DNA from: Enterococcus hulanensis
GTDB taxonomy: Bacteria > Bacillota > Bacilli > Lactobacillales > Enterococcaceae
Assembly: GCF_005405485.1 (NCBI RefSeq)
Contig: NZ_BJED01000015.1
Span: 62,001 to 126,000, forward strand
Length of the DNA stretch: 64,000 bases
Direction: 5' to 3'
Shown here one piece after another: positions 12,930 to 26,137 of the stretch. The notes under the pieces were generated by a model. That model worked only from the letters and a program-made list of their open reading frames with translations. It was not told where the DNA came from and did no database searches. The position numbers were made by a program, and so were the translations under genes. The stretch's first letter is position 1; every line of letters begins with the position of its first letter.

Positions 12930-13106
12930 ATGACTGAAAGAGAAGAAGTAGAGAAAATCATGATCAAGTACAATCGTAATTTCTCCGAGCTACAAGACAA
13001 TGCGACAGTCAAGGAAATAAAAACCGTATTCAAATATATAGGCAACGAATCCAATCGCAAACAACGTGCCTTAATCGGACTGGATAAGAAGTCCTCTCAA
13101 GAATAA
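12930..13106 (+). CDS. Small helical protein (58 aa)
   Basis: A 58-codon frame starts at ATG 12930 with TTGGAGGACA about eight bases upstream and ends just before the terminator at 13131. The product MTEREEVEKIMIKYNRNFSE... is highly charged and predicted mostly helical, with an ending of KKSSQE. No family is recognised. It is convergent with the Fst-type toxin gene at 13177, and its transcript would run through the shared hairpin at 13131-13155. The gene or its 3' end could therefore overlap an antisense regulator of the toxin; this is inference. Confidence 0.6.
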   Translation: MTEREEVEKIMIKYNRNFSELQDNATVKEIKTVFKYIGNESNRKQRALIGLDKKSSQE

Positions 13107-13130
13107 CGTTCCACCAACAATAACCTACCA

Positions 13131-13155
13131 ACACCTGCGGCACAGCCGCAGGTGT
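13131..13155. terminator. Bidirectional hairpin terminator
   Basis: A perfect 11-bp stem, ACACCTGCGGC/GCCGCAGGTGT, encloses a three-base loop. It lies between the convergent genes at 12930 and 13177, as the shared terminator does in Fst-type par loci. Confidence 0.8.
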
Positions 13156-13176
13156 ATTTTGTCTTCCAATCAGTCG

Positions 13177-13269
13177 TCATGGATCGCGCCCGCTCAGCCA
13201 ATGGTTGACCAGAGCGACGATCAACCCAACAAAGAGCGGAGCGAGGACGTATCGTACCAGCTCACTCAA
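13177..13269 (-). CDS. Fst-family type I toxin peptide (30 aa)
   Basis: The 30-residue peptide has the core APLFVGLIVALVNHWL, with a short polar tail SGRDP. This follows the Fst pattern (APIFVGLVLEM) of the E. faecalis pAD1 par toxin: a single membrane helix and a charged C-terminus. The start is TTG at 13267-13269 behind GGAGG. On the mRNA, ACCTCC upstream can pair with the GGAGGT that holds the Shine-Dalgarno sequence (13281-13301), as in Fst RNA I. The gene is too short for usual gene callers. An antisense RNA II from the left of the shared terminator is expected but not identified with certainty. Confidence 0.82.
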   Translation of the reverse strand: MSELVRYVLAPLFVGLIVALVNHWLSGRDP

Positions 13270-13280
13270 GAGCACCACCT

Positions 13281-13301
13281 CCTTCCATGATGGAGGTTGA
13301 C
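13281..13301 (-). promoter_or_regulatory. 5' UTR hairpin sequestering the toxin ribosome binding site
   Basis: Read on the minus strand, ACCTCC, a nine-base loop and GGAGGT form a 6-bp stem that covers the Shine-Dalgarno sequence of the Fst-type toxin. In pAD1 par, a comparable stem blocks translation until the antisense RNA acts. Confidence 0.65.
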
Positions 13302-13350
13302 GACATGAATGGGGCTTACCTACGCGTATTTGGTTAGAAAATGACCAGGT

Positions 13351-14013
13351 TTAGCTGCGAGTGTCGTCATCAGGCGGACGGACAAGCGGGTCCTCCTTGT
13401 TCCTGTTTCTTCTTCTGCGGAGCCGATCGAGCAGTCGGATTCGTGGCTTTGGCTGTTCTTCGGGCTCTTGCAGATTTGGCGATGGGTCGGGCATTTGTCC
13501 TTGTTCTACAGGCGTGGCAGCAGACTCATTTGTAATTTGTGCTAATGCTTCTTTTCCATTTATTTGTGTATTTAATTTTAATGAAGATGAAATCTCTCTC
13601 TTATCTGCTGGTTTTGCGAGTAGAAGGGCAGACTTATCCACAGAAAATAAAGAGTGTGAATAGTTTTCCTCAGGTTTATCCACATTGTCCACAGTTGCCT
13701 TGGGATAAGTCGCAGGAATGCCCACAGTTTCTCCCTCAGTTGTGGATTTATCTGTGAATTTTTCTGTGGATTGTTTATCCACTGGTTCTGCCTCATCATC
13801 AAAAAGAGTCGTATCGGTGGTGGTGACGATCTTAGCCGTTACCACAGAGTCAAATAGTTTTACGCCGTCTTTTTCAAAAATGTCTAAGCTGGTCAACAGT
13901 TCGCAGGCTTCTTTGATCTCTGGGATCGGCACAGACGCGTCCAGCCCCTTGTAGGTCCAATCATGTTCTTTTCCTAGACTGTTGGTAAATGTCGCTACTA
14001 AATCATGGGTCAT
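13351..14013 (-). CDS. DUF2922-domain protein with long acidic/basic tail
   Basis: Residues 1-70 (LVATFTNSLGKEHDWTYKGL..., then IFEKDGVKLFDSVVTAKIV) match the DUF2922 family, as does the 70-residue protein at 14592. Here the domain is followed by about 150 extra residues: a Thr/Glu/Lys-rich low-complexity linker, then PKPRIRLLDRLRRRRNRNK, a strongly basic patch, and an acidic end. DUF2922 proteins are normally about 70-80 residues, so this is an extended version. The start is ATG 14011-14013 with AAAGGA upstream; a GTG 33 bases earlier is less likely. Function is unknown; the Arg patch could bind nucleic acid. Confidence 0.72.
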   Translation of the reverse strand: MTHDLVATFTNSLGKEHDWTYKGLDASVPIPEIKEACELLTSLDIFEKDGVKLFDSVVTAKIVTTTDTTLFDDEAEPVDKQSTEKFTDKSTTEGETVGIPATYPKATVDNVDKPEENYSHSLFSVDKSALLLAKPADKREISSSLKLNTQINGKEALAQITNESAATPVEQGQMPDPSPNLQEPEEQPKPRIRLLDRLRRRRNRNKEDPLVRPPDDDTRS

Positions 14014-14061
14014 CTTCTCATATCCTTTCTCAAATTTTTTCTTCACGCAGGTAAACAGTTA

Positions 14062-14445
14062 TCATGGTTCGCTTGTTTCTTCGGGACGGACTTTTGCAAT
14101 TAGGGAACGGACAAGGGACATGGCTTTTACGCCAAAGTTACGGACAGGAAAGACCTTCGATGTGAGTGCGCGCCATTCCGGTGCCATGAAGTAATCTTGG
14201 AAATAATAAAAGAATCGCTTCATGGTCCGAGTTGCCTTGGTGTGCATGAAAATATCGCGGACAAGGTCTTTTAAAATGTGCTGGAACTCCTTTGCCCCAA
14301 GCTGCCAGCGCACACGCAAGGTCAAAATATATTTAATCGTCAGAGAACTATTCTGGGTCTCATAATAGTATTCGCTGATACGTTTTTCTAAGGTCTTTGG
14401 TTTCAAATTGAACAATTGGCGACACGTTAAGAGTTGCTCATTCAT
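14062..14445 (-). CDS. Hypothetical protein in DUF2922/DUF1659 cluster
   Basis: The 127-residue product MNEQLLTCRQLFNLKPKTLE... is basic and predicted helical, rich in aromatics (RISEYYYETQNSS, MKRFFYYFQDYF), with no signal or membrane segment. GAGGAGGATATG lies upstream of the ATG. It lies between the two DUF2922 genes on the same strand and is probably part of their operon. The C-terminus, KVRPEETSEP, is polar. I do not recognise a family. Confidence 0.6.
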   Translation of the reverse strand: MNEQLLTCRQLFNLKPKTLEKRISEYYYETQNSSLTIKYILTLRVRWQLGAKEFQHILKDLVRDIFMHTKATRTMKRFFYYFQDYFMAPEWRALTSKVFPVRNFGVKAMSLVRSLIAKVRPEETSEP

Positions 14446-14534
14446 AGGATCATATCCTCCTCATCTATTTTCATGCCGTCTACCATCCAGCTCATTGCTG
14501 CGTTCAAGTTATCCACAATAAGCTGGATCGGCAA
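14442..14534 (-). CDS. Possible 30-residue peptide gene
   Basis: An open frame from TTG 14532-14534 encodes (M)PIQLIVDNLNAAMSWMVDG and ends DEEDMIL. Its stop TGA overlaps the ATG of the next gene as TATGA, a common sign of translational coupling. The composition is protein-like and amphipathic, but there is no clear ribosome binding site, so the call is tentative. An internal ATG could give a shorter peptide. A GC-rich hairpin (GGAT...GGCGA) lies just upstream. Confidence 0.3.
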   Translation of the reverse strand: MPIQLIVDNLNAAMSWMVDGMKIDEEDMIL

Positions 14535-14591
14535 CCGACTATTTAGTAAGGATAGGCGACAGCGCTATCGCCCATCCTCAAATTCTTGGGA

Positions 14592-14804
14592 CTAAAAGAT
14601 AATTGTTTCGACAGTTTCCACATACTTTGCACTGACGACGTGGTCGAAGAGCTTTTCGCCGTCTTTTTCAAAGATCGTCAAGAGTGTCAGTCTTTCTAAG
14701 ATGCCTCGGATCTCATCACTGGATCGGTCTTGTGCGGGATTTTGGTAGCTCCATGTTTGGGAGCGTCCGCCGCTGGTTTTAAAGATCGCTACTAATTTTT
14801 TCAT
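14592..14804 (-). CDS. DUF2922-family protein
   Basis: This 70-residue protein, MKKLVAIFKTSGGRSQTWSY..., contains the family's IFEKDGEKLFDHVVSAKYVET segment near the C-terminus and is of typical family length. Its gene starts 17 bases after the DUF1659 gene on the same strand, with AGGAGGAAAAG as ribosome binding site. DUF1659 and DUF2922 genes are regularly adjacent in Firmicutes, which supports both calls. Their function is not known. The longer DUF2922 protein at 13351 is a paralogue. Confidence 0.82.
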   Translation of the reverse strand: MKKLVAIFKTSGGRSQTWSYQNPAQDRSSDEIRGILERLTLLTIFEKDGEKLFDHVVSAKYVETVETIIF

Positions 14805-14821
14805 TTATGCTTTTCCTCCTC

Positions 14822-15028
14822 TTATTTGCTCACTCGTGATTGGCTGGTGATAATCACGCCGTCTAACTGTGTGTCTTCTACGTCAAGTTCCTTCATAAGC
14901 TGTCCTAGTTTAAGGATTTGTGCTTCATCTGGATTTTCCACGACGTTTTGGAACGTGACTTTCTTTAATTTCTCTGCTCCTGGTAAAGAAAGCTGCACCT
15001 GTAATTTTGTACTTAATCGTTGGATCAT
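14822..15028 (-). CDS. DUF1659-family protein
   Basis: The 68-residue product MIQRLSTKLQVQLSLPGAEK... with KVTFQNVVENPDEAQILKLGQLM and a C-terminal VIITSQSRVSK has the length and pattern of DUF1659 proteins. It is the first gene of the cluster read on the minus strand, followed by DUF2922 (14592), 14062 and the extended DUF2922 protein (13351). Its ribosome binding site (GGAGGCGTTA) is good. The function of the family is unknown. Confidence 0.8.
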   Translation of the reverse strand: MIQRLSTKLQVQLSLPGAEKLKKVTFQNVVENPDEAQILKLGQLMKELDVEDTQLDGVIITSQSRVSK

Positions 15029-15103
15029 AATTAACGCCTCCGTGTTTTTGTATTGTTGTACCGGCCGGTGACTAAAAGATAAATGATTTCAAAAAAGAAT
15101 GCG

Positions 15104-15214
15104 AATTTGAATTTGGCAGCTACTCCCCCCAATTTGGCAGGTTTTGGAGCGAAAATGGCCGATTTCGGCAAAAAAGCTGCCAAATTGAGGGGGGTACGAG
15201 CCAAATTGTAATTT
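15104..15214. repeat. Long nested inverted repeat
   Basis: The arms 15104-15140 and about 15177-15214 form an imperfect hairpin of about 37 bp. Each arm contains two copies of the AATTTGGC(AG) word separated by a C-rich (CCCCCC) or G-rich (GGGGGG) tract. A second small hairpin (GCCGA/TCGGC, 15158-15169) sits in the loop. It lies between the ComK-like gene and the DUF1659 cluster and could be a transcription barrier, a processing site or a mobile repeat. No T-run follows it. Confidence 0.75.
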
Positions 15215-15276
15215 GAGAAAAAAAGAAGGTTGAGTTATAATTGAAAGTTTTTACCTAAAAATGCGAAGAAAGACAG

Positions 15277-15319
15277 AAAAATAGCTGAACACTCGGTCAC
15301 TCAAGCGTTCAGCTATTTT
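15277..15319 (-). terminator. Terminator after the ComK-like gene
   Basis: The stem AAAATAGCTGAAC/GTTCAGCTATTTT encloses a 16-base loop. It lies immediately beyond the ComK-like stop and ends in U on the minus strand. Confidence 0.75.
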
Positions 15320-15326
15320 GTTAAAT

Positions 15327-16052
15327 CTAAAGCCAGTCAATATGGTCACTATCATCTGGATCGTACATCAAGGGTTCGCAATGGTAGAGGGAGTAGGTCT
15401 GTTGATATAGGCGATTAATCTCGCCAAGTGGTGTTCGAAATTCTTTCAGACTAGAGCGTTTGCTTAAAATTTTCGCAAAAGGGCTGTTTGGAAAATATAA
15501 GAAATCTAGCGGAATCTCTCCATCGAGACCGTAATGTAAGACCCCGCGGCGAATCGTCGCCAAGACCAGACAAGCGATCTCCGCCCGTTCAATGAAGCGG
15601 CGGTAATGAAGTGGCAGAAGTAGGCAGAGTCCATTCGTCAGTTCTGCGAAGAATTGCTCCTCCACACTAAAGACGGTGGAAAGCTTGATAGGGTTGAGCC
15701 AGATCGTCTGGTCCTTTCCCTCAAGTGGAAATAATGCAAAGAACGGACAGACCCAAGGCATTTTATATTTTCCGAAATGCCCCAGCTTCTTTAGACAAAT
15801 AGATAAGACTTTATAATCAGAAAATGAATGTGCCGAAGAAAAGCGATGCAAGGTTTTCATAGCATTGATTTTGCTGAAATGGATCTCTGTATCCGTGAAG
15901 ATCAATACTCCTGCTCTATCTGGAATAGGAACGATACAGTTTATCTCATGGACAGTCAACGGATCGAATGCGACCGCCTCTTTAAGGTAGTGTTCCCATA
16001 ACGGTGACCACTGTCTGTCATCTAAAGCCTCTATTTTATTCATTTCATCCAT
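15327..16052 (-). CDS. ComK-like competence transcription factor
   Basis: The 241-residue protein has a central segment of the form LGHFGKYKMPWVCPFFALFPL...IWLNPIKL. This corresponds to the ComK pattern in which a short basic loop precedes hydrophobic strands (KxPxMxxxxxxIFLFPT in B. subtilis). ComK activates DNA-uptake genes in Bacillus; enterococcal relatives are somewhat longer and mostly untested. Several Cys residues and a WSPLWEHYL N-terminus are not informative. AGGAGGAATTACT precedes the ATG. An AAAGCGCTTT palindrome (around 16073-16082) upstream is a possible catabolite control site. The identification is from pattern memory only. Confidence 0.55.
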   Translation of the reverse strand: MDEMNKIEALDDRQWSPLWEHYLKEAVAFDPLTVHEINCIVPIPDRAGVLIFTDTEIHFSKINAMKTLHRFSSAHSFSDYKVLSICLKKLGHFGKYKMPWVCPFFALFPLEGKDQTIWLNPIKLSTVFSVEEQFFAELTNGLCLLLPLHYRRFIERAEIACLVLATIRRGVLHYGLDGEIPLDFLYFPNSPFAKILSKRSSLKEFRTPLGEINRLYQQTYSLYHCEPLMYDPDDSDHIDWL

Positions 16053-16254
16053 AGTAATTCCTCCTTATAGTAAAGCGCTTTATTTATGCTTACAATAAGA
16101 ATATACGACAAAAAACAAGAAGTGAGTTGTTGAAAATTAAGGGGTTATAACAAAATAGTCAAAAAACCTAATTTTTTTGTTATATATTAAGGAGTTGGAG
16201 ATTAGCTATTTTTTCTTCTTTTTATAGGATATAAATACTGGTTAATGAACAAAC

Positions 16255-16291
16255 AAAGACATCTTCTCGGCGGGTTCGAGAAGATGTCTTT
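16255..16291. terminator. Strong hairpin just outside the invertible segment
   Basis: A perfect 15-bp stem (16255-16269 with 16277-16291, loop GCGGGTT) is flanked by TTTATTT on the right and, on the minus strand, TGTTTGTT. It lies 55 bases outside the left inverted repeat. It would stop transcripts leaving the segment leftwards from the promoter at 16425-16453, protecting the ComK-like gene side. Confidence 0.8.
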
Positions 16292-16345
16292 ATTTGTAAG
16301 GGATGTAAATAGTTGATAATTACATTAAAAATGTATAGATTATTA

Positions 16346-16370
16346 CATGGTTTAACCAAAACTATGAATA
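16346..16370 (+). repeat. Left 25-bp inverted repeat of the invertible segment
   Basis: It begins CATGGTTTAACC and ends CTATGAATA. The exact reverse complement is at 17926-17950, with divergence immediately outside, as expected for recombinase crossover sites. Confidence 0.9.
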
Positions 16371-16424
16371 ATTTCATTTTTCTAACCTAAGTATTTCAGT
16401 GAAAAAATGATTTGATTTGTATTA

Positions 16425-16453
16425 ATTATAAAATATAGGAGAAGAATAATCAA
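16425..16453 (-). promoter_or_regulatory. Outward promoter at left end of the invertible segment
   Basis: On the minus strand, TTGATT (16448-16453) is separated by exactly 17 bases from a perfect TATAAT (16425-16430). In the present orientation it reads left, through the repeat and into the terminator at 16255-16291. After inversion it would read right, into the WxL operon. Confidence 0.72.
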
Positions 16454-16563
16454 TATCTTTTATTAAAATCACTAAAAAAGAATAAATGTAATCATTTTAA
16501 AACAAGCGTTCTCGATTGAAAGGGTTAGAAGTAAGGTCGAATCAAATTAATTCTTAATTATTT

Positions 16564-16582
16564 ACCGTCAAATAAACCGTCA
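16564..16582 (+). repeat. ACCGTCA repeats near the recombinase start
   Basis: ACCGTCA occurs at 16564-16570 and 16576-16582. A third copy is at 17878-17884, near the other end of the segment. They could be arm-type binding sites for the recombinase; this is inference from position alone. Confidence 0.35.
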
Positions 16583-16596
16583 GAAGGAGAAGCATT

Positions 16597-17703
16597 ATGC
16601 GCAGAGGCGAAAACATTTACAAAAGAAAAGATGGACGTTGGGAAGCCCGCTATAAAAAAGGCTATAAACCCAATGGAAAAATCAAATACGGGTACATCTA
16701 TGGAAGAATCTACAACGAAGTACGAACAAAGCTCTATTTAATGAAAGCCCACTATCTAAACCAGCAAGAAACCTATGGAGAAACGTGTATCTCCTTAGAA
16801 GAATGGGGACATATCTGGCTTAAAGAGGTCAAACAACAAGTAAAGTCCTCTACCTATAGTTCGTATGAATATAAAATAAATAAATACGTTTTTCCACAGA
16901 TCGGAGAACTCTCTTTAAACGAACTCACCGAAACTACAGGAGAACAATTAGTCAACCTGTGGATAAAATCCGGCTTAGAGGTCTCTACAATGAAAGTCAT
17001 TTTAAGAATTACCAATCAATGCCTGAATGAAGCGATCCAAAAAGAATACCTAAAACAAAATCCCTTTCTATCCCTAAAGCTTCCTAAGAAAACCAAAAAG
17101 CCCATTCGTGCATTGAATAGAATAGAGCAGGAAAAACTACAAAAAGCAGCTCTAGCCGAAAAAAAGGATGCAGGCTTACCAACCTATTTAGCCCTGCAAA
17201 CAGGACTACGAATTGGAGAAATCGCTGCACTACAATGGAAAGATATCGACTTTGACCGCCATCTGATCACAGTCAATAAGACCTATCAACGAATCTACCT
17301 AGCCGATAAAGGAGAAAAAACACAGCTAGTCACAGGCTCTACTAAAACAGAATCAAGTACACGAACCGTACCCATGGGACAACACCTGCAAAAAATCCTA
17401 ATGAAACACCACAAACAATCGAAAGGAGAATTTGTCTTTTCCACAAAAAACCATCAGATGGAACCTCGATTAATCACCTATCACTTCCATCGAATCAGAA
17501 AACAATGCGGCTTGGAGAATGTCCACTTCCATCAATTACGCCATACATTCGCAACCCGCTGCATAGAAACAAAAGGCGATATCCGATCAGTCAGTGAACT
17601 CCTAGGACACAGCTCGACCAAGCTAACACTGGATACCTACGCAGACTCGATGACAGAACAACGCTTTGAAGTCATCTATCAAATGGAAGCCGCCATTTGT
17701 TAG
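16597..17703 (+). CDS. Tyrosine recombinase (phage-integrase family)
   Basis: The 368-residue recombinase has an N-terminal AP2-like DNA-binding region (about 4-48), a SAM-like core-binding domain (about 65-165) and a catalytic domain with all expected residues: R205 (TGLRIGE), K250, H312-x-x-R315 (HQLRHTF), H338 (LLGHSS) and nucleophile Y348. AGAAGGAGAAGC precedes the ATG. No excisionase or phage genes accompany it. It is the only gene between the inverted repeats 16346-16370 and 17926-17950, so a role in inverting its own segment fits better than phage integration. A weak forward promoter (TTGATT-16-TATAGG, 16412-16439) may drive it. Confidence 0.93.
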   Translation: MRRGENIYKRKDGRWEARYKKGYKPNGKIKYGYIYGRIYNEVRTKLYLMKAHYLNQQETYGETCISLEEWGHIWLKEVKQQVKSSTYSSYEYKINKYVFPQIGELSLNELTETTGEQLVNLWIKSGLEVSTMKVILRITNQCLNEAIQKEYLKQNPFLSLKLPKKTKKPIRALNRIEQEKLQKAALAEKKDAGLPTYLALQTGLRIGEIAALQWKDIDFDRHLITVNKTYQRIYLADKGEKTQLVTGSTKTESSTRTVPMGQHLQKILMKHHKQSKGEFVFSTKNHQMEPRLITYHFHRIRKQCGLENVHFHQLRHTFATRCIETKGDIRSVSELLGHSSTKLTLDTYADSMTEQRFEVIYQMEAAIC

Positions 17704-17770
17704 AAATAAAAGTATGAAAAATTTTAAAAAATCCCTCCCAAAAATTCTGCCACTCTTTTTTCAAAACCCA

Positions 17771-17784
17771 AGAAAGCGCTTACT
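17771..17784 (+). promoter_or_regulatory. cre-like catabolite control site
   Basis: The site AGAAAGCGCTTACT matches the CcpA operator consensus TGWAANCGNTNWCA at 12 of 14 positions, with the two end bases off. It lies 10 bases upstream of the -35 element of the rightward promoter at 17795-17824, a place where CcpA could act. Confidence 0.4.
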
Positions 17785-17794
17785 ATTTTTTGGT

Positions 17795-17824
17795 TTGTTA
17801 AAAACCACCTATTTCCTTTATAAG
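17795..17824 (+). promoter_or_regulatory. Rightward promoter inside right end of the invertible segment
   Basis: TTGTTA (17795-17800), an 18-base spacer and TATAAG (17819-17824). In the present orientation it points across the right repeat to the WxL operon. It is a weaker match than the promoter at the left end. Confidence 0.45.
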
Positions 17825-17865
17825 AAATTAAAAGAAAAGTTTTTTTTTATTTAAAAACATTTTAT

Positions 17866-17918
17866 ACGCCGTCGCTTACCGTCACCAAGCTCCGCTAAGC
17901 CTTGGTACATAAGGCGTT
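17866..17918. repeat. GC-rich nested hairpin next to the right repeat
   Basis: An outer stem of the ACGCC/GGCGT type encloses ACCAAG/CTTGGT. In an otherwise AT-rich region it lies a few bases inside the right inverted repeat and contains one ACCGTCA word. It may be part of the recombination site or an attenuator; there is no T-run. Confidence 0.45.
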
Positions 17919-17925
17919 AGAGGTA

Positions 17926-17950
17926 TATTCATAGTTTTGGTTAAACCATG
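17926..17950 (-). repeat. Right 25-bp inverted repeat of the invertible segment
   Basis: This is the exact reverse complement of 16346-16370. It lies 116 bases before the start codon of the first WxL gene. Confidence 0.9.
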
Positions 17951-18002
17951 AAAAAAATAATCAGAACATATCTTATTTAAAGGTCCAACTTAACCCAATA
18001 TC

Positions 18003-18025
18003 AAATGTACCATTTTAGTACATTT
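18003..18025. promoter_or_regulatory. Palindrome in the WxL operon leader
   Basis: AAATGTAC and GTACATTT (8 bp each) flank a 7-base centre, outside the invertible segment and about 40 bases before the first WxL gene. It could be an operator, or a weak hairpin in the transcript. The winged-helix regulators at 23303 and 24085 are obvious candidate ligands. Confidence 0.5.
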
Positions 18026-18066
18026 TAGATATAAAAACACTAAATTATATTAAGGAGAGAAAAGAG

Positions 18067-18867
18067 ATGAATAAGAAAAAATTAGTCACAGGTTTGCTAA
18101 GTGCAGCATTCCTAGGCGGGGTATTGGTTACCACTGCATTACCAGCAGAAGCGAAAGATTACGACGGACAATCAAAAGGGTCTGTAAAATTTAAAGAGGG
18201 TACATTAGAATTACCAGAAATCACAGATCCAATTGTTGATCCAATTGATCCACCAGATAGTAATTTTGGTTTGCTTTATGTACCAAAAGAATTTAACTTC
18301 GCAGAAACAGCTGTTCCAACCTCCGTTGTCTCAGGAAATACCACAATTCCCCTTGATTCAAACTGGGAATGGGATAATGCTCTACACGCAACCGATACAG
18401 GTGGATCTGGTGGAACTAACCCAACGACGAAACATTTTGCGGTTGGTGATGTTCGTGGGAAACGTGCGGCTGGTTGGAAATTAACAGCTAAACTAACTGG
18501 TGCTTTGAAAGACGGTGGTTCAGGTAAGCTTTTATCTGGTGCTACTATTACTATGGCTCAAGGAATCAATGAATTGACGCCTCAACCGAAACCAACACCA
18601 TGGATTGAAACAGCGACAACTGCTGGAGCTGGTACACATACTCCTGATGTTGTTCCCGGAACTGTGACATTAGATTTATCAGCAACAACTGTCATGAGTG
18701 CATCTGCCGAAACAGGACCTGGCAAGGCCGATGGTCGCGGTGAAGGGTACTGGCAAGGTGAATTCAAAAATATTAATCTAGTTGTTCCAGATACAGCAAT
18801 GAATGCTGTTGCAACTGGTGAACAGTACGAAGGAACAATCGACTGGACATTAACAGATTCGATTTAA
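18067..18867 (+). CDS. WxL-domain surface protein
   Basis: The 266-residue protein has a signal peptide cleaved after AEA (about 29) and then a WxL domain with its two signature motifs, GWKLTAKL (W137) and the C-terminal DWTLTDSI (W260). WxL domains bind peptidoglycan non-covalently and act in complexes with the DUF916/DUF3324 protein and LPxTG partners encoded in the same operon. AAGGAGAG precedes the ATG. It is the first gene after the invertible segment. The short linker DPIVDPIDPPDS is typical of these proteins. Confidence 0.93.
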   Translation: MNKKKLVTGLLSAAFLGGVLVTTALPAEAKDYDGQSKGSVKFKEGTLELPEITDPIVDPIDPPDSNFGLLYVPKEFNFAETAVPTSVVSGNTTIPLDSNWEWDNALHATDTGGSGGTNPTTKHFAVGDVRGKRAAGWKLTAKLTGALKDGGSGKLLSGATITMAQGINELTPQPKPTPWIETATTAGAGTHTPDVVPGTVTLDLSATTVMSASAETGPGKADGRGEGYWQGEFKNINLVVPDTAMNAVATGEQYEGTIDWTLTDSI

Positions 18868-18885
18868 TAAGAAAGTATGAAAAAG

Positions 18886-18925
18886 GACAGGTTGAAGATA
18901 GAAGTTGTCTTCAACCTGTCTTGTC
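18886..18925 (+). terminator. Intercistronic hairpin, probable attenuator
   Basis: A perfect 13-bp stem (GACAGGTTGAAGA at 18886-18898 with its complement at 18908-18920) lies between the WxL gene and the DUF916 gene. Only TTGTCT follows, so termination is likely partial. This would give the first WxL protein higher expression than the rest or stabilise the upstream mRNA. Confidence 0.6.
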
Positions 18926-18939
18926 TAAAGGAGCCAAAT

Positions 18940-20013
18940 ATGAAGCGACTACTCCCGATTTTAAGCTTAGTAGTAATGATCTTTTTCCCTATCACAGGGT
19001 TTGCGAAAGATACCAAGGAATCACAACAAGGGATCACTGAAAATGAACAACGTGCGGGCTTTACCGTACAGGCGGTATTACCAGACAATCAGATCAATGA
19101 TCGTGTGGGCTACTATCAATTATTAGTGACCCCTGAACAGAAACAAACGATCCAAGTAAAGATCGTAAATACTTCTGATAAGAAGCAGACCTATAAAGTA
19201 GAAGTCATCAATGCCGCAACAAATAAAAATGGCTTGATTACATACGACGAGCGAGAGAAGAAGCCGGATGCTAGTATGAAGCTGCCGATTGCAAATGTGG
19301 CGAAGCCAAAGAATAAAGAAGTCTCAGTGGATGCTTACACCGAAGGCAAGGCGGATATCGACATTCAGATGCCGGCAGAATCCTTTCAAGGTATCTTGCT
19401 TGGCGGGGTTCGAATCTCCTTGAAATCTGATGAAAAAGAAGAGGAGTCCGAGGGTATGTCTGTTAAGAACACTTATGGGTATGCCATTGGATTGGTGTTG
19501 ACGGAACAAGACTTCGCACCTGTTTATGGTGAGACAGAGCTGAAGCTGACAAAGGTCCAGCCAGAACTTGATTACGGGAGTAAAGTCTTGGAGGCTAGTA
19601 TCCAAAATCCACACCCAGAAGCTATGCAAAAACTGGTGGCAGAAGGGAAGATCGTCCGTAAAGGGCAAAAAAGAGCTTTGGCGAAGAACAAGCTGGAAAA
19701 TGTCAAGATCGCGCCGAACTCAGTCCTTCCATTTCAGATTGATTGGGGACTGCAAGAGGTCGCTGCTGGGGATTATACCTTTATCGGCAAAGTAACCGGA
19801 AAGACGAAAAGCTGGGATTTTAAGCAGGATTTCACAATCACTCGTGAGCTGGCGAAGAAGATGAATGAACAAACAGCGTTCCGTATCTTTATCCCCATTT
19901 GGTGGACGACAAGTTTCTATGTGGTAGGGACGATCACTGCTATCGTGACTGCTTGGCTCATCATTCGCTTCGTCAAACGAAAGAAAGGGAGGGAGATACA
20001 TGAAGAAGAATAA
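18940..20013 (+). CDS. DUF916/DUF3324 WxL-interacting membrane protein
   Basis: The start is placed at ATG 18940 because AAAGGAGCCAAAT precedes it. The 357-residue product has a signal peptide (1 to about 23), the DUF916 domain (about 35-160, GFTVQAVLPDNQINDRVGYY) and the DUF3324 domain (about 170-310). It ends with a C-terminal membrane helix (about 322-345) and RFVKRKKGR. In other enterococci and lactobacilli this protein holds WxL proteins at the cell surface. It overlaps the small LPxTG gene by 14 bases. Confidence 0.9.
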   Translation: MKRLLPILSLVVMIFFPITGFAKDTKESQQGITENEQRAGFTVQAVLPDNQINDRVGYYQLLVTPEQKQTIQVKIVNTSDKKQTYKVEVINAATNKNGLITYDEREKKPDASMKLPIANVAKPKNKEVSVDAYTEGKADIDIQMPAESFQGILLGGVRISLKSDEKEEESEGMSVKNTYGYAIGLVLTEQDFAPVYGETELKLTKVQPELDYGSKVLEASIQNPHPEAMQKLVAEGKIVRKGQKRALAKNKLENVKIAPNSVLPFQIDWGLQEVAAGDYTFIGKVTGKTKSWDFKQDFTITRELAKKMNEQTAFRIFIPIWWTTSFYVVGTITAIVTAWLIIRFVKRKKGREIHEEE

Positions 20014-20443
20014 AGTTTGGTATGTGCTTGTTGGGTTGTTTTGTTTATGTACAAGTAGTGCCACCGTTTATGCGACTAGTTACAACGGTCAAAGTCCAAT
20101 AGGCGTTCGTTTCTATGATCCGACAAGTACTTCATCATCAAGTAGTAGTACATCAAGCTCTACGACCAGTTCCACGACGAGCGCAAGTTCGTCTAGCTCT
20201 ACCAGTTCCAGCAGCAGTACAGTTCCAAGTGCGTCCTCGCTACCAGATACGAATGAGAAAAAGAGCAGCTTTTTATGGTGGGGAAATGGTGATGGAGGAT
20301 CAGGTGGAACGACTCGCTATTACGCCGATAACAAGCTCCTGCCTAGTACCGGAGAACTCGTTCATTTGGCATTGCCATTTGCGGGTGTGTTCTTAGTGAT
20401 GCTGGTTTTCTTCTATCTAAAAAGAGGGAGGAAACGAGTATGA
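20000..20443 (+). CDS. Small LPxTG-anchored protein of the WxL operon
   Basis: The 147-residue protein has a signal peptide (1 to about 25), the sequence YNGQSPIGVRFYDPTS, and a long Ser/Thr-only stalk (about 42-78). A short region with WWGNGDGGSGG follows, then LPSTGE, a hydrophobic helix and KRGRKRV. It is a sortase substrate of the kind usually found with DUF916 and WxL genes. The gene overlaps its neighbours on both sides (14 and 4 bases), so translational coupling is likely. GGGAGG lies upstream of the start. Confidence 0.9.
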   Translation: MKKNKVWYVLVGLFCLCTSSATVYATSYNGQSPIGVRFYDPTSTSSSSSSTSSSTTSSTTSASSSSSTSSSSSTVPSASSLPDTNEKKSSFLWWGNGDGGSGGTTRYYADNKLLPSTGELVHLALPFAGVFLVMLVFFYLKRGRKRV

Positions 20444-22980
20444 AATCAAGAATAAAAGGTCTTTTTGCAGTAGTCATCGTTTTATCAGGGGTTATCGTAG
20501 GAAGTATAACTTATCCGGATGAGTCGCTTGCACAACAAACAGGGACTTATACTGGTAAAATTGATTTCGATATGCGTATGGATGATGGTAGCCTTATTCC
20601 AGCAGGAAAGGTTCCGGTGGCAAAAGTTGAATATGCAGTAAGGACAATTGATCAAGAATGGTTAGATAATGCTAACATTGTATATCAAACTGACGCCTAT
20701 GCTAATCCAGAAACTATTACCATTCCATATAATGGTGCAGGAAATTATTCTTTTACTAAACCAGCTCAGACATGGAATTACGGTACATTTCAGCCTAGTA
20801 GCAACCCCCCGTATCGATTGCGGGGATGGACGTATTATCATTTATTTCGTAGGTTGAATTTTACGAATGTACCTGCTTATATTCGAACTATTTCAGCTAA
20901 GTCTTCTGTTTTAGGAGATTATTCTCGCTATACTTTAGCATATGATACTTATATTTCTCCCACACTTGGTGGAGTAGGTATCCTAGAAGCTTCCTTTAGT
21001 GACGACAATACAAGTATTAAAAATGCAAACTTAACTAGAGTATCGCAAGGGAATTTTAGTTATCAGGGGGGGCCGCCGTTTGGTGCAGTGCCTGAATTTG
21101 ATCCAAACACAGTGGAATTTGCTGTTACTGGTGGAAGACCTGGGACTAGCTATCCCAGTCGTTATGCAGAACAGTCTATAAAGAACTCAAGCGCAGGTGC
21201 TCTAGGTAGAAAAATTACCTTCTTCATGAAAGGATTCCAAACAACGGAACAGTTTATGGATCCAGATGGTGGATGGGTGCCAGCCCCACCTGGATTTACT
21301 CAAAATAAAACAACAGATGCTAATGATGATCATTTTACCCATACAATGAACAAACTTCCAACTTCTTATGAATCTGGTGGGAATTTGTATGTGCTGCAAG
21401 GCTGGCATCAGAAATATGCAAAACCAGCAATCTTAGAGCAGTCTAATCCTCCGTCTATTACAGTTGACTATAATCAACCGAAAACTATTAGTCAGTTGGA
21501 TGAAGAAGGATATATTCGTGTAATTTACGCTAAGGCATTTGCAGTGAAGGAAAAGTATGTAGATAGCAGTAATACATCAATCGATAGTGGAAGTTGGGAT
21601 ACAGTAAATCCTGTTGCTAACAACGGCAATTTCACAGGAACGCCAGCTGCAACCAAGACAGATAGTAGCGGTGCTATATGGGAATATCAAGGTTGGAAAG
21701 AAGGAATCTCTGGAACAGTAAATGGTACAGCAGTACCAGTTACCATTAATAATATTACTGGAAATAAAGATATTTACTATATTTACAAAAAGAAACTACA
21801 TGCGATCACTCGAAAATATGTAGATCACACAGATGGAACTACTCTATTACAAATTCCTTCAAATCCAAATACTTCTTGGAAGAATGACGGCGACCTATTA
21901 ATGTATGCCAATCCCACATCGCAAACAGATACAAATGGTGATGTGTGGGATTATGTTGGTTGGGAAAATGTGACGGATGCTCCGGGTATAGTTAATCCTA
22001 CGAGTACACCTATATCCATTAGTAGTATCAAAGGACCTAAAGAACTTCGTTATCACTATCAAACACGAAAGACTACCGCGACTTTAGATTTGAAGCCAAC
22101 ACCGCAAATTGTCGATAGTGGTGACACGGTTTCTTGGTCTTCGAAATTAACCAATACGGGTGCCTCAGACTTAAAAGATTTAGTTTTGAAGTCTACGTCT
22201 AATTGGGCGGCAGGTCTAACTGATCCTGTTAAAGTGACGGTAACACCAGCAGGTGGAGCACCACAGGACTTTACTGTTAACTCAGGTGATTGGGCGACTG
22301 GGGTGAATCTGACTGGGATTTCGATTCCAAAAACTGGTCCAAATAATTATGCGGATATTACCTTTACAACTACTGCCACAGGTGCAGCAAATCAAGTGTT
22401 GCCAGCAGAAATTGAAGTGGACGGGAATATACCAACACCATTGAAAGCAGAAAACTTTGTCCGCATCGACGATCAAGATGAACCGAATTTGCTACCTTCA
22501 GGAAATTCAGGACTACTCAACATTCCTAATTTCAAATTTGGAGAAGTAGAGGTCAAACCTTTTGCACAAAGGAAAGGGTTAGATTCAAGTGAATATGCGA
22601 ATCCTAGTTACAACCCTTACATTCGCTATATGGATAACGAAAGTATAGGGACTTACAGCCTTTCAGTGAAGATGGGACCATTTACCAGCGGATCGAAAAC
22701 CTTGCCTGCTGCTACAAGTATTATATTGGGTACTGGTACGGTGAAAGAAGTTCAAAACTATAACAAACCTAATGAAACTTTGTCTGCTGGCAGTTCTATT
22801 GGACCAATGAGGATCGAATCGGATAATACGACGTCTATTATTCACCTTGGAAATACTCAAGGAGTTTATCAGATCGACTATGACTTTAATGATGTGGAGT
22901 TAGACTTAGTTGCACATTCTGGTATCGCTGGATTGGACTACAAGGCTGTTATGGATTGGACGTTGACCACAGCTCCGTAA
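20440..22980 (+). CDS. Large multi-domain WxL surface protein
   Basis: The 846-residue secreted protein has a signal peptide (1 to about 31) and an N-terminal region of about 320 residues without a recognised domain. MucBP-like or bacterial repeat modules follow around residues 360-545 (KEKYVDSSNTSIDSGSW, then RKYVDHTDGTTLLQ). A DUF11-like module (about 548-665, LDLKPTPQIVDSGDTVSW) comes next, then a WxL domain that ends MDWTLTTAP (W840). The first WxL motif is degenerate (YSLSVKM). The last gene-level adhesin of the operon, it probably reaches beyond the wall while its WxL end binds peptidoglycan. The ATG overlaps the preceding stop. Confidence 0.9.
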   Translation: MKSRIKGLFAVVIVLSGVIVGSITYPDESLAQQTGTYTGKIDFDMRMDDGSLIPAGKVPVAKVEYAVRTIDQEWLDNANIVYQTDAYANPETITIPYNGAGNYSFTKPAQTWNYGTFQPSSNPPYRLRGWTYYHLFRRLNFTNVPAYIRTISAKSSVLGDYSRYTLAYDTYISPTLGGVGILEASFSDDNTSIKNANLTRVSQGNFSYQGGPPFGAVPEFDPNTVEFAVTGGRPGTSYPSRYAEQSIKNSSAGALGRKITFFMKGFQTTEQFMDPDGGWVPAPPGFTQNKTTDANDDHFTHTMNKLPTSYESGGNLYVLQGWHQKYAKPAILEQSNPPSITVDYNQPKTISQLDEEGYIRVIYAKAFAVKEKYVDSSNTSIDSGSWDTVNPVANNGNFTGTPAATKTDSSGAIWEYQGWKEGISGTVNGTAVPVTINNITGNKDIYYIYKKKLHAITRKYVDHTDGTTLLQIPSNPNTSWKNDGDLLMYANPTSQTDTNGDVWDYVGWENVTDAPGIVNPTSTPISISSIKGPKELRYHYQTRKTTATLDLKPTPQIVDSGDTVSWSSKLTNTGASDLKDLVLKSTSNWAAGLTDPVKVTVTPAGGAPQDFTVNSGDWATGVNLTGISIPKTGPNNYADITFTTTATGAANQVLPAEIEVDGNIPTPLKAENFVRIDDQDEPNLLPSGNSGLLNIPNFKFGEVEVKPFAQRKGLDSSEYANPSYNPYIRYMDNESIGTYSLSVKMGPFTSGSKTLPAATSIILGTGTVKEVQNYNKPNETLSAGSSIGPMRIESDNTTSIIHLGNTQGVYQIDYDFNDVELDLVAHSGIAGLDYKAVMDWTLTTAP

Positions 22981-23010
22981 GTGAAGAAAGCGAGAAAGAG
23001 AGAGGAATCT

Positions 23011-23226
23011 ATGTACAATTATGTTTGGCTATCTGCGGGTATGGGGGTTCTTTCCCTCATCCTAGCGATCTTTTTCCTGGTGAAGGATCTGTCTTATTGC
23101 GAACAGACGCAAAGGAAAAAGCTGACTTATCTGCTAGCAAACTGGGGGATGTTCCTCTTGGCGATCGTCTGGATTGGTCTGGGGATCAGTCTGTATGTCA
23201 TCATCCAGAACCAGTTAACAGCTTAA
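23011..23226 (+). CDS. Small membrane protein at the end of the WxL operon
   Basis: I place the start at ATG 23011 behind GAGAGGAATCT; the frame can be read from GTG 22981, but that lacks a site. The 71-residue product has two hydrophobic helices (about 4-24 and 41-62) with a charged loop, CEQTQRKKLTYLLANW. It follows the large WxL gene by 30 bases and is followed by a weak hairpin (about 23235-23257), so it closes the operon. Possibly an accessory membrane partner; no family known. Confidence 0.6.
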   Translation: MYNYVWLSAGMGVLSLILAIFFLVKDLSYCEQTQRKKLTYLLANWGMFLLAIVWIGLGISLYVIIQNQLTA

Positions 23227-23302
23227 AAAAATGACCGCTCGATGTTTCGGGCGGTTTGTACATATTAACGTGGTGTAACGCCACACAAGAACGAGGTGGA
23301 AA

Positions 23303-24055
23303 ATGAATCGCATATTGATCTTAACAAAAAATATTTCAGTGGAGACCTATTTGCAGCAGCAGCTCCAAAAACTGAATTACGAAGTGTTGGTTTCCGTATC
23401 AATCTGGGAAATGTGGGAGAACGTGCGCCGCGTGGATCGTTTCATGAAGTCCTTTCAATGGATCTTCCTAAGTGAGACGATCTCCGATAACGAAGCGCAG
23501 GAATTCGGTGAGCAGTTCACCACAGATTGTCTGGTACGGATCGTCGGCGAGGAACCTTTGGAAGCGACTTCAGCAAAATGGCACGACTGGCATGTTTTTG
23601 ATTGGATACTGGCGAACACTTCCCTAGAACGGCTGCGCGAAAAGCTGGTCTACAAATCCCTGTTGTACCAAGTCGAATTTCGTGAGGAGAAAAAGGAATT
23701 GGCAGCCTACGGCAATCATTCGCTGGACTATCAGAAAAAGGCCTTTCCTTTGTATTACTCAGAGATTCACTTTACCAAACTAGAAAAAGATATCATTCAG
23801 CGGCTAATGACGGCGAAGAACCTGTCCTTAGCCAGAGAAGAACTATGCCGCGGCTGGCGCTCCAAAAATCAAAACTCCAAGCTGAGCCAACTATCCTCAG
23901 CCATCACGAAGATCCGAAAAAAAGTGGCAGAGACCTATGGAATCGAGGAAGCCGTCCACACATTATGGGGTGAAGGGTATCAGTTGAACACGTACTTTTA
24001 CAACTGTCTCTTAAAAGGAGAATTCCACAGCCAATCAATGAGCCTTAATCAATAG
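23303..24055 (+). CDS. Winged-helix regulator with degenerate receiver domain (copy 1)
   Basis: The 250-residue protein has an N-terminal receiver-like fold (ILILTKNISVETYLQQQL..., about 1-120) that lacks the acidic pair. It carries Ser-Glu (WIFLSETISD) where the phosphorylated Asp would be. The C-terminus (about 150-235) is an OmpR/PhoB-type winged helix (LARE ELCRGWRSKNQNSKLS, ending LWGEGYQLN). It should bind DNA without phosphorylation control. Such regulators accompany WxL loci in enterococci. The neighbour at 24085 and the protein at 39750 are paralogues. Confidence 0.82.
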   Translation: MNRILILTKNISVETYLQQQLQKLNYEVLVSVSIWEMWENVRRVDRFMKSFQWIFLSETISDNEAQEFGEQFTTDCLVRIVGEEPLEATSAKWHDWHVFDWILANTSLERLREKLVYKSLLYQVEFREEKKELAAYGNHSLDYQKKAFPLYYSEIHFTKLEKDIIQRLMTAKNLSLAREELCRGWRSKNQNSKLSQLSSAITKIRKKVAETYGIEEAVHTLWGEGYQLNTYFYNCLLKGEFHSQSMSLNQ

Positions 24056-24084
24056 AAGAAAAAAATCAGAGAGTAGGAATACGC

Positions 24085-24801
24085 ATGAGTCAGATATTAT
24101 TATTTACCAAAAACCCCTTGAACGAACAAGCCTTTGAGGAATGCCTCAGACAGCTAGGCCACGAAGTCTTTACCACGAAGGAGCTGGTGGACCTATGCCT
24201 AATGGATAACGCCAAACACGACTTTATCCAAATCTTCCACCAAATCATTCTCAGCGAAACGATCGCCAATGTCGAAGTAAAAGAACTCGTGAAGCAGCTG
24301 CGCAGCTACACGATCCCGATCTTCCGCAAATCCGATGAACCACTAGAAGAAACACAGCTAGAAGAATGGAAAGCACTCGGCGTCACCGAGTGGATCGAAA
24401 GCCGTCCCAGCATCGAAGTGCTAAGAGAAAAACTCAGCTGCGACAAACTCCGCACCGACAGCAAGATCGTCTTTCTTCCAAAATCAGAAGAAAGAATCAA
24501 CCTGACCAGCCTATCGCTCAGCAGCGGCGAGCTGAAGCTCTTCCGCATCCTGCACGAACAAAAGAACAAAACCGTCTCCCGCGAAGAACTCTGCCTCCGC
24601 ATGTGGAATAGACAAAAAAGCAACTCCAGCATGTCCCAGCTATCCGTCATGGTCAAACACCTAAAAGACAAACTAGCCGGCCAAGGCATCGAAGGACCAA
24701 TCATCGAAACCTGTTGGGGCCGCGGGTATCGACTGGATGGGAAAGTTTATGAACAGGTTGGGGTGGATGAAGTTGATGAAGTGCTGGTGGGTCAGCAGTA
24801 G
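24085..24801 (+). CDS. Winged-helix regulator with degenerate receiver domain (copy 2)
   Basis: This 238-residue paralogue of the protein at 23303 has a pseudo-receiver of about 115 residues with QIILSETIANVE at the phosphoacceptor site, and a C-terminal winged helix (SREELCLRMWNRQKSNSSMS... GRGYRLDG). The gene is 30 bases after copy 1. The codon choice is noticeably GC-richer than in flanking genes. The last 120 or so bases recur in broken form at 27230-27371, so a duplication ended inside or beyond this gene. Confidence 0.82.
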   Translation: MSQILLFTKNPLNEQAFEECLRQLGHEVFTTKELVDLCLMDNAKHDFIQIFHQIILSETIANVEVKELVKQLRSYTIPIFRKSDEPLEETQLEEWKALGVTEWIESRPSIEVLREKLSCDKLRTDSKIVFLPKSEERINLTSLSLSSGELKLFRILHEQKNKTVSREELCLRMWNRQKSNSSMSQLSVMVKHLKDKLAGQGIEGPIIETCWGRGYRLDGKVYEQVGVDEVDEVLVGQQ

Positions 24802-24880
24802 ATAAGTAAAAACGATAGGGGGATAGGGATTATTTTGACGCTTTGTTTGCTAAAAGTGTTCAAAAGAGAGGAGAAAAAGG

Positions 24881-25918
24881 GTGAGAAAGTATGGATTCAT
24901 TGTAGGGTTGTTACTGGTATTGAGTGTAATCAGCGGGTGCGGCGGAGGTACGAATCTCCAAGAGGAATATCAAGCAGAGCTGCAGAAGCAAGCGAAGATG
25001 AACAGTGGAACCTTTGAGCTTGTCATTGACAGTGTTTCAATCGATGCCGGGGATAAGGATTCCAGCGTTGAAGATAAAATGATGTTTGATGTGATCGAAA
25101 AGCAGCTAAGAGGAGTATCACTCGCTGGTTCCTATCAAGTGGACAAGAAAACGATGAATCAATACGTGAAGCTCCAATTAGATGCACTTGGACAGAAACT
25201 GCCGCTTGATTTTTATTCAAATCATCAAGCGAAGGAACTCTATATTAATGCCGCACTCCAACAGTTTGCTCAATTCAACTCAGACCTTTCCGCTCATACC
25301 CAGAAAATGGAGAACAGCGAGGGCAAATATATCTCAATGACACAAAAAGAGGCGCTCAAGGCAATAGGACAAAAAGACTTGGCGGCTCCTAAAACAACTA
25401 TTTCTGATTTCATCAAGACACTAGAGAAAGACTCCTTCAAAAAAGATGGTGACAAGCTAACCCATCGCTTTACGAAGGAAGAAATCCAAAACTATCTATC
25501 AAAGCAAAAAAATACAGACTTAGAAAAACTAGAAAGCTTATCGATCGACCTAACCTTGGATACAAAAGAACATACAAAACAAGGCAAGATCACAGCTAAA
25601 AGTTCAAACGACGGTGCAAGCTATACTGTAAAGATGACGATGAATCAAAAACCGAAAAACAACAATAAATCCGTTCAACTGCCGAAAAAAGAAGCACTCA
25701 TCCCAATCGAAGAATTTCTCAAAGAAATTACTTCTCCAACACAAGTAGACGATGAAGCAATGGCGAGAGTTCTTAAAAATATAGAAGACGAAAAAGATGT
25801 TATCGACGCCGAATCCGCAGAAAAAATAAAAGAGACGTATCGTCAATATTTGAATGATGAACAGTATCAACAAGTCGTTCAAGCATTGGATAAGGTGCTG
25901 GCAGAAAAGAAAGAATAG
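24881..25918 (+). CDS. Lipoprotein of unknown function (345 aa)
   Basis: The signal peptide ends with a lipobox, VISGC, so the mature protein is anchored through Cys at about residue 20. GTG 24881 is the start, behind AGGAGAAAAAGG. The extracellular part has an alternating strand pattern (FELVIDSVSIDAGD..., LDLTLDTKEHTKQGKITAKS) recalling large lipocalin-like lipoproteins such as LppX/DUF6612, and a Lys/Glu-rich helical C-terminus (EKDVIDAESAEKIKETY). A terminator at 25935-25985 makes it monocistronic. No family is confirmed. Confidence 0.75.
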   Translation: MRKYGFIVGLLLVLSVISGCGGGTNLQEEYQAELQKQAKMNSGTFELVIDSVSIDAGDKDSSVEDKMMFDVIEKQLRGVSLAGSYQVDKKTMNQYVKLQLDALGQKLPLDFYSNHQAKELYINAALQQFAQFNSDLSAHTQKMENSEGKYISMTQKEALKAIGQKDLAAPKTTISDFIKTLEKDSFKKDGDKLTHRFTKEEIQNYLSKQKNTDLEKLESLSIDLTLDTKEHTKQGKITAKSSNDGASYTVKMTMNQKPKNNNKSVQLPKKEALIPIEEFLKEITSPTQVDDEAMARVLKNIEDEKDVIDAESAEKIKETYRQYLNDEQYQQVVQALDKVLAEKKE

Positions 25919-25934
25919 CGAATAAAATCAATTT

Positions 25935-25985
25935 AAAAACCTAATTTACATTCTTAAAGCAGCAGAATGGAAACTAGGTTTTTAA
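25935..25985 (+). terminator. Terminator after lipoprotein gene
   Basis: AAAAACCTA pairs with TAGGTTTTT around a 30-base interior and ends in T. It lies 17 bases after the stop. Confidence 0.65.
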
Positions 25986-26137
25986 ACGTGTATATAAAAG
26001 AAAAAATATTTTTACGTCAGAAACCGCCACATTTATGCGTACCTTTATAAGTGGAGAGCTTTGATTGAACAGAGCACACGCCCCTGACTTAGCAGTAGCA
26101 ATATCTTTTAATCCTCTGTTAAGGTCAGCTTAGAAGA

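Follow-up and report, generated by a model that had tools for sequence, protein, structure and literature searches.

Why should a tyrosine recombinase gene lie alone between two perfect inverted repeats, directly in front of an operon for WxL surface proteins? The question is posed by a 64,000-nucleotide stretch of Enterococcus hulanensis DNA (assembly GCF_005405485.1, contig NZ_BJED01000015.1, positions 62,001 to 126,000), which we call the window and whose own numbering is used throughout. We conclude, with a probability of roughly 0.86, that positions 16346-17950 (1.6 kb) form a self-encoded switch in which an invertible promoter controls the WxL operon. A promoter-like site within the segment points towards the left repeat and, beyond it, a 21-bp hairpin, and the WxL operon is therefore read as being in the OFF state. 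Phase variation at this locus had been proposed in an initial annotation made from the letters alone; it is now supported with high confidence for the family of such cassettes and with good confidence for the copy in the window, through evidence from relatives instead of from the strain itself.

Anatomy of the segment and its recombinase

The features of the segment and its immediate borders are as follows.

16249..16297, no strand: strong terminator-like 21-bp hairpin just outside the left repeat (inverted-repeat scan, fold energies)
16346..16370, + strand: left inverted repeat and putative core recombination site, CATGGTTT-aacca-AAACTATG plus AATA, matching the right arm at 25/25 bases and read as half-sites around a spacer
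16425..16453, - strand: sigma-70-type promoter-like site TTGATT-N17-TATAAT, pointing leftward and outward, the best match of the region
16565..16581, + strand: paired CCGTC motif 5' of the recombinase start, proposed arm-type sites, conserved in leaders
16597..17703, + strand: tyrosine recombinase of 368 amino acids, predicted three-domain Tn1549/lambda-Int type (Pfam, catalytic residues, AlphaFold model)
17774..17781, no strand: palindrome AAGCGCTT between recombinase and right repeat, partially resembling a CcpA cre site
17869..17883, + strand: second pair of CCGTC motifs, some 50 nt inward of the right repeat, likewise proposed as arm-type sites, conserved in tails
17926..17950, - strand: right inverted repeat and putative core recombination site, matching the left arm at 25/25 bases
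18067..18867, + strand: WxL surface protein, first gene of the operon (Pfam PF13731)

The essentials of this layout, as the initial annotation had described them, were reproduced on re-measurement. The arms at 16346-16370 and 17926-17950 are complementary at 25/25 bases, the match falling to 94% when extended over 31 nt; the recombinase gene is the sole open reading frame (ORF) of at least 80 amino acids between them; and 116 bases separate the right arm from the WxL start codon at 18067. With up to three mismatches allowed, the 25-mer has only these two copies in the window (0 in 100 shuffles), and its 24-base core only two in the 4.74-Mb genome. The full set of catalytic residues claimed for the recombinase is also present, namely R205, K250, H312, R315, H338 and Y348, whose roles we take to be those of their counterparts in the family.

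The recombinase belongs to the phage-integrase family (Pfam PF00589, E 8e-28), which as a tyrosine recombinase family rules out a Hin-type serine invertase; an identity as XerC or XerD was likewise rejected, the scores of 88.6 and 73.4 bits lying far below the curated cut-offs of 335.15 and 329.6. A profile search against solved structures placed the Int protein of 6emy/6en0/6emz nearest, with the lambda integrase lower down. An AlphaFold model built on an alignment of 10 (mean predicted local distance difference test score 84, predicted template modelling score 0.54) has an N-terminal domain of three strands and a helix (residues 7-54), followed by helical core-binding and catalytic domains, and its best Foldseek matches are 6emy (Tn1549 integrase) and 1z1b (lambda integrase), with TM-scores of about 0.5. 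The prediction thus points to a three-domain architecture with an N-terminal arm-binding domain, as in the Tn1549 and lambda integrases; an AP2 match to this domain was weak and below cut-off (E 0.042), and appeared in one of the four N-terminal stretches scanned.

Inversion and conservation among relatives

The reverse arrangement of the segment, which the initial annotation had suggested seeking in related genomes, is present at three places, and the relatives hence do not share a single orientation throughout. In genome G091 the same locus (L293 and L294) occurs near both ends of one contig, whose ends repeat each other. The segment is inverted between the two copies, and their flanks of 5,737 and 5,764 bases (11.5 kb) have 0 differences. 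The sole 2 differences are the mismatches between the repeats, which are exchanged such that the outer halves stay and the inner halves move; these hybrid halves place the crossover in the shared core, as reciprocal recombination predicts. The offset puts the end overlap at about 40 kb, and the comparison covered three pieces of it (L323/L324 at 99.6%, L325/L326 at 100% and the 13-kb locus); alternatively, a true 40-kb terminal duplication in place of an overlap would also need a very recent inversion. By Pfam a WxL operon lies behind this cassette: besides its WxL protein it encodes a winged-helix regulator, an LPXTG protein and a 1235-residue protein bearing an adhesive domain. In E. pallens, L131 is inverted relative to L129 and L127, with operon flanks 94.8% and 86.2% identical and the identity ending at the repeats. 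The third case is L327, a WxL operon by Pfam, which is inverted relative to L319 and L313 with its breakpoints at the repeats. Both orientations, as expected of an inverton, are therefore found in relatives, the strain of the window contributing one.

These relatives form a large family. A search of 20 genomes of the genus, including that of the window, recovered matches at E 1e-40 or better in 12 of them, giving 127 in total and up to 28 per genome; all 127 loci were retrieved, some of them ending at contig edges. At E 1e-60, 37 of 105 genomes and 4 of 17 genera of the taxonomic family have matches, and at E 1e-75, 24 of 395 genomes and 5 of 80 genera of the order; more distant relatives occur in gut Clostridia. 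The initial annotation had raised the possibility that orthologous recombinases lack the repeats; most homologues in the genus turned out to be flanked by them. Among loci with long flanks, 98 of 102 have repeats scoring at least 13, against 25 of 150 controls in which the downstream flank was reversed, and 80 of 102 score at least 16, against 0 of 150 (largest control score 15). Repeats scoring at least 13 lie at the canonical place in 108 of the 127 loci, and it is these 108 on which the cassette counts below are based; 24 of them are in E. pallens. For two other genera (g12 and g13), such repeats were found at 43 of 50 loci chosen among the matches listed, with those of L334 and L336 at odd places and likely due to chance; for 51 non-enterococcal loci among the 80 matches listed, 36 have repeats scoring at least 16, as do 0 of 49 reversed controls. 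As a separate observation, five recombinase homologues of g13 (L303, L309, L311, L317 and L321) lack flanking repeats, and behind each of them lies a convergent ORF some 500 codons long. The enzyme too is maintained: it is full-length with the residues R, H, R, H and Y in 105 of 108 cassettes, the exceptions being L118 (5 internal stops), L162 (4 internal stops) and L144, which alone among the 106 lacking internal stops has lost a catalytic histidine. L118 (genome G007), with weak repeats besides its five stops, has a member of the 241-residue protein family described below on its other side; it is a fossil, and perhaps one frozen in the inverted state.

Each repeat arm is itself nearly palindromic, two 8-bp half-sites flanking a 5-bp spacer, with half-site symmetry of at least 5/8 in 100 of 108 cassettes. 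Where a core could be recognised (100 of 108 cassettes), a common spacer was found in only 8 of 652 within-genome pairs, 5 of these 8 in E. pallens; being free of a chance control, these counts demonstrate difference and not selection for difference. The similarity of half-sites tracks that of the recombinases (Spearman 0.375 for the core-binding domain in a Mantel test, the largest of 500 permutations reaching 0.199). By domain, mean identity is highest in the N-terminal domain (61%), as expected if that domain reads a shared motif, and amounts to 39% in the core-binding and 53% in the catalytic domain.

A point absent from the initial annotation is that the window's recombinase is one of ten of this kind in its own genome (4.74 Mb, 47 contigs), all of them aimed at a WxL or pilin gene. 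Five targets are of the WxL type, that of the window by Pfam and the other four by C-terminal motif and neighbours. The remaining five are of the pilin type: Pfam identifies SpaA and pilin D1 domains for two, and the other three are assigned by homology to those, two of these three being cut by contig ends. Nine of the ten cassettes have matching repeats scoring at least 17, and, with spacers that differ between them, each surface operon is probably governed by a bit of its own. Elsewhere the switched operons include a signal-peptidase/glucosaminidase cluster, a SecA-like gene, a gene for a leucine-rich-repeat protein and operons headed by a winged-helix regulator. Some further details of these loci deserve mention. 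In the window's genome, the pilin genes behind L013 and L079 (C42 and C44) are 96% identical over 415 residues and both lie on short contigs; either they were duplicated recently or one region was assembled in alternative ways. By eye, the pilus operon leaders of L012 and L013 contain a tiny ORF (MFIEGQTY) that has a strong ribosome-binding site and may encode a leader peptide. Two transposase-like ORFs, judged IS3-like by eye, separate the left gene from the left repeat in L185 and L186 (E. raffinosus plasmids), where the cassette itself is intact; L184 does not have them.

The genes surrounding the switch in the window comprise the following.

15327..16052, - strand: divergent gene left of the switch, 241-residue protein of unknown family that recurs beside other cassettes
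18877..20013, + strand: WxL-interacting protein (WxLIP; Pfam PF11797 and PF06030)
20000..20443, + strand: small LPXTG protein of the EF2685/EF0750 family (NCBIfam NF053819)
20440..22980, + strand: ORF of 846 codons, next in the WxL cluster, with a signal-like start by eye and no Pfam family at E 0.001

By Pfam and NCBIfam, a WxL protein, a WxLIP and a small LPXTG protein are thus clustered here, as is typical of a WxL operon. No Rfam element was found within 13000-26000. In the leader of the WxL gene (17995-18035) there is a dyad, ATATCAA-TGTAC...GTACA-GATAT, whose pattern was matched in 8 loci, with paired changes (GTAC to GTGC/GCAC) in some of them that suggest an RNA hairpin or an operator. 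Past the cluster lie two ORFs, 23303-24055 and 24085-24801, of which the first encodes an OmpR-like winged-helix domain; in several relatives the switched operon begins with a similar regulator.

Promoter-like site, candidate arm motifs and proposed mechanism

The window's promoter-like site, which together with its direction adds to the initial annotation, has counterparts throughout the family. Within 110 nt of the inner edge of the left repeat, 101 of 107 cassettes have an outward site scoring at least 9.5, as compared with 4 of 107 for the 110 nt on the operon side, where the mean score of 7.93 is matched by shuffles (8.03); the cassettes being related, these counts are not independent. 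Most of the outward sites read TTGnnn-N17-TATAAT and most lie about 30-78 nt from the repeat. Sequence conservation thus points to a promoter inside the segment and aimed outward, and it is from this that we infer its activity. A candidate operon promoter inside the segment by the right repeat (TTGGTA-TATATT, 17902-17929) is not conserved, rightward sites scoring at least 10 being found in 3 of 108 tails, and our first reading of the window, which took this right-end promoter to signify the ON state, was dropped after the family comparison. We identified no promoter belonging to the recombinase gene itself. A conserved rightward promoter outside the left repeat, driving the recombinase according to orientation, was also considered and rejected (score of at least 10 in 8 of 100; mean 8.2 against 7.8 in shuffles).

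The motif CCGTC occurs in the leader, between left repeat and recombinase, in 100 of 108 cassettes and in the tail, between recombinase and right repeat, in 104, where it lies about 42-66 nt inside the right repeat; it is paired in 74 leaders and 59 tails. The longer form CCGTCA is present in 98 leaders and 94 tails, against 0.9 and 1.8 expected, with the reverse word GACGG in 13 and 13. From this distribution we propose that the motifs are arm-type sites. Of the 108 cassettes, 42 have the palindrome AAGCGCTT in their tail and 0 in their leader. Its label as a CcpA (cre) site is our presumption, and an outright CcpA reading was set aside with the fuller cre-like pattern TGNAANCGNTNNCA present in only 2 of 108 tails; the palindrome may tie switching to carbon source. 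The left hairpin folds with energies of -26.1 and -29.9 kcal/mol on the two strands, and a T-run scan did not score 16249-16297 as a terminator. Perfect-stem hairpins lie outside the left repeat in 19 of 100 cassettes, outside the right repeat in 2 of 100 and in 0 of 100 shuffles; a terminator at the left is hence not universal.

Based on these observations we propose the following mechanism. The recombinase would bind both inverted repeats as core sites, each made of two 8-bp half-sites and a short spacer, its N-terminal domain also binding the CCGTCA arm motifs by analogy with the lambda and Tn1549 integrases. Bridging arms and cores, it would exchange strands inside the core and invert the segment along with its own gene. 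In the present, presumably OFF, state the strong promoter-like site of the leader would fire leftward through the left repeat into the hairpin, which would halt its transcripts; after a flip it would adjoin the right repeat and read into the WxL gene and its operon. Since the segment contains both sets of arm motifs, inversion would regenerate the same substrates with only the outer flanks changed, and the chemistry itself would give the reaction no direction. It follows that an excess of the OFF state would have to come from selection, from an orientation-dependent supply of recombinase or from a further factor.

We lean, with little more than even confidence, towards a wider view in which an integrase of the lambda/Tn1549 type was domesticated into a one-gene switch module and multiplied, reaching up to 28 recombinases per genome, so that some enterococci would hold dozens of private, mutually orthogonal self-inverting promoter bits. 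The shared arm motifs would be read by the conserved N-terminal domain and the private cores by the diverging domains; each bit would govern one surface operon (WxL, pili or secretion clusters), with OFF as the default and possibly a CcpA-like metabolic input.

Alternative readings, known systems and significance

Several observations weigh against an active switch. The window locus itself has been seen in one orientation only, and in 117 of the 120 genus loci with enough flank a forward ORF begins 150-800 nt past the recombinase. The three exceptions are L060, L131 and L138. A homology comparison of left-outward genes marks only L131 among them as ON, and would overlook any ON cassette whose operon is unique. 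In g12 and g13, 2 of 50 loci are ON, so that ON was recognised at at least 3 of 177 loci and OFF dominates; five complete E. raffinosus plasmid records, with one of two places each, are all OFF. A frequently flipping switch should look more mixed, and the ON state is either rare or selected against in sequenced cultures. On the same side, 7 of the 50 recombinases from g12 and g13 have no repeats scoring at least 13; one of the ten cassettes of the window's genome (C11b, L010 4600-6600, before a second WxL operon) has decayed, with mismatched repeats and spacers, and is probably a locked switch; the number of promoter matches in the window alone is at shuffle level; and the half-site correlation is alike for the three domains (0.34, 0.38 and 0.27), which demonstrates co-inheritance and not which domain reads the site. 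Mixed orientations would fit with the 5 of 18 contig starts near recombinases that begin in the left repeat (L061, L091, L095, L123 and L137); among the joined alternative contigs sought at the repeats in G005 and G011, no left-flank contig end was found, which leaves the evidence from contig breaks indirect.

The orientation bias speaks for a locked relic, a once active copy that no longer flips and keeps its repeats by descent only, for the ten copies of the window's genome and nearly all relatives share one orientation. Yet the window copy combines 25/25 repeats, an intact ORF with catalytic residues, arm motifs and a promoter-like site, and copies that have decayed look different (C11b, and L118 and L162 with their internal stops), so that we regard a relic as quite improbable. 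Somewhat less improbable, and still unlikely, is an either/or selector, in which the promoter serves the surface operon one way and the divergent 241-residue gene the other. The left divergent genes include one recurring family with up to 28 members among 64 left-outward genes, and only 19 of 100 cassettes have the perfect-stem hairpin outside the left repeat; in gut Clostridia, metagenome-assembled genomes hold two loci (L230 and L261) with large outward ORFs on both sides of the recombinase, L230 having one of 726 codons on either side and an imperfect inverted match of nearly 500 nt, as in an either/or switch. In the window, though, the 21-bp hairpin separates the promoter from the left gene, and 63 of 127 loci, contig ends included, have no left-outward gene within 700 nt. 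The 241-residue protein had no Pfam match up to E 10, and a resemblance to ComK found no support and is not claimed.

That the opposite orientations are assembly artefacts, or products of rare homologous recombination between short repeats, is very hard to credit. It is true that the single assembly behind L293 and L294 has an end overlap left untrimmed, itself an imperfection; against this stand breakpoints within the cores, the hybrid half-sites, 11.5 kb of identical flank and two independent inverted cases in other genomes (L131 and L327), and, at 22-28 bp, the repeats are short for an exchange of the RecA type. Least probable of all is a mobile integrase-type element that merely ends at the repeats and lies beside surface operons with no regulatory role. 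The Tn1549 integrase is indeed the closest enzyme, and records from Butyricicoccus, Blautia glucerasea and Agathobaculum (L251, L253 and L255) are 99.99-100% identical over 8.8-13 kb, a near-identity that reflects either recent transfer or contamination. Such an element would nonetheless have to consist of a single gene with inverted and not direct repeats, to sit in a constant relation to the forward ORF (117/120, as above) with a conserved outward promoter-like site, and to have repeats and enzymes that co-diversify. An invertible promoter switch accounts for the locus best among these readings.

Parts of this arrangement are familiar from other systems. The type 1 fimbrial switch fimS, with FimB and FimE, also has a tyrosine recombinase that flips a promoter before a surface organelle operon, and there OFF can dominate; the fimB and fimE genes are outside the segment and encode minimal enzymes lacking an arm-binding domain. 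The integrases of Tn1549 and lambda share with the model of the present enzyme an N-terminal beta-sheet, core-binding and catalytic domains; those of Tn1549/Tn916 and lambda integrate and excise elements, whereas here the sites are inverted and inversion would result. The Hin/Gin segments, as in the Salmonella flagellar switch, likewise have the recombinase gene inside, an inverting promoter and an adjacent surface gene; Hin, however, is a serine recombinase, in contrast to the tyrosine integrase with a predicted arm-type domain and many copies per genome seen here. The sections of PMC5903667 used here name Hin as an example of a recombinase within its own segment, and describe the Mpi and RecV systems as ones where a single recombinase serves several switches elsewhere in the genome. 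These invertible promoters of Bacteroides and Clostridioides resemble the present case in their inverted repeats, promoter inversion and surface genes, and RecV also in being a tyrosine recombinase; they differ in that here each switch has its own recombinase.

In the open-access literature we found no recognisable description of inversion at enterococcal WxL or pilus operons, in keeping with the initial annotation's impression that a self-encoded inversion at such a locus was undescribed. Invertible promoters as such are already known; what appears to be new here is a probable self-encoded inverton with a predicted arm-domain tyrosine integrase, in many copies per genome. In the sections consulted, PMC5903667 places in Bacilli 1 of the 15 inversion-positive Firmicutes species, and PMC11892184 gives a median of 0 invertons per genome for the Bacillus-like Firmicutes of one defined gut community, its main text making no mention of Enterococcus. 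The latter sections also link a mostly clostridial inverton group to a nearby tyrosine recombinase group, possibly the clostridial branch encountered here.

Both junctions of a cassette are predictable from sequence, and a direct test is therefore possible in existing read archives. We infer that the strain of the window would switch its WxL operon in the same manner as its relatives. Should the wider view set out above be true, it would amount to an extensive combinatorial code for the cell surface within the Bacilli, where two surveys found few invertons. If the cassettes work as read, many independent switches for WxL complexes and pili would be present in several enterococcal lineages, E. 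pallens and E. raffinosus included, and would provide a ready set of self-encoded DNA switches. Surface diversity that is hidden between strains and within them could be explained in this way, with possible consequences for adhesion, immune recognition and phage sensitivity.

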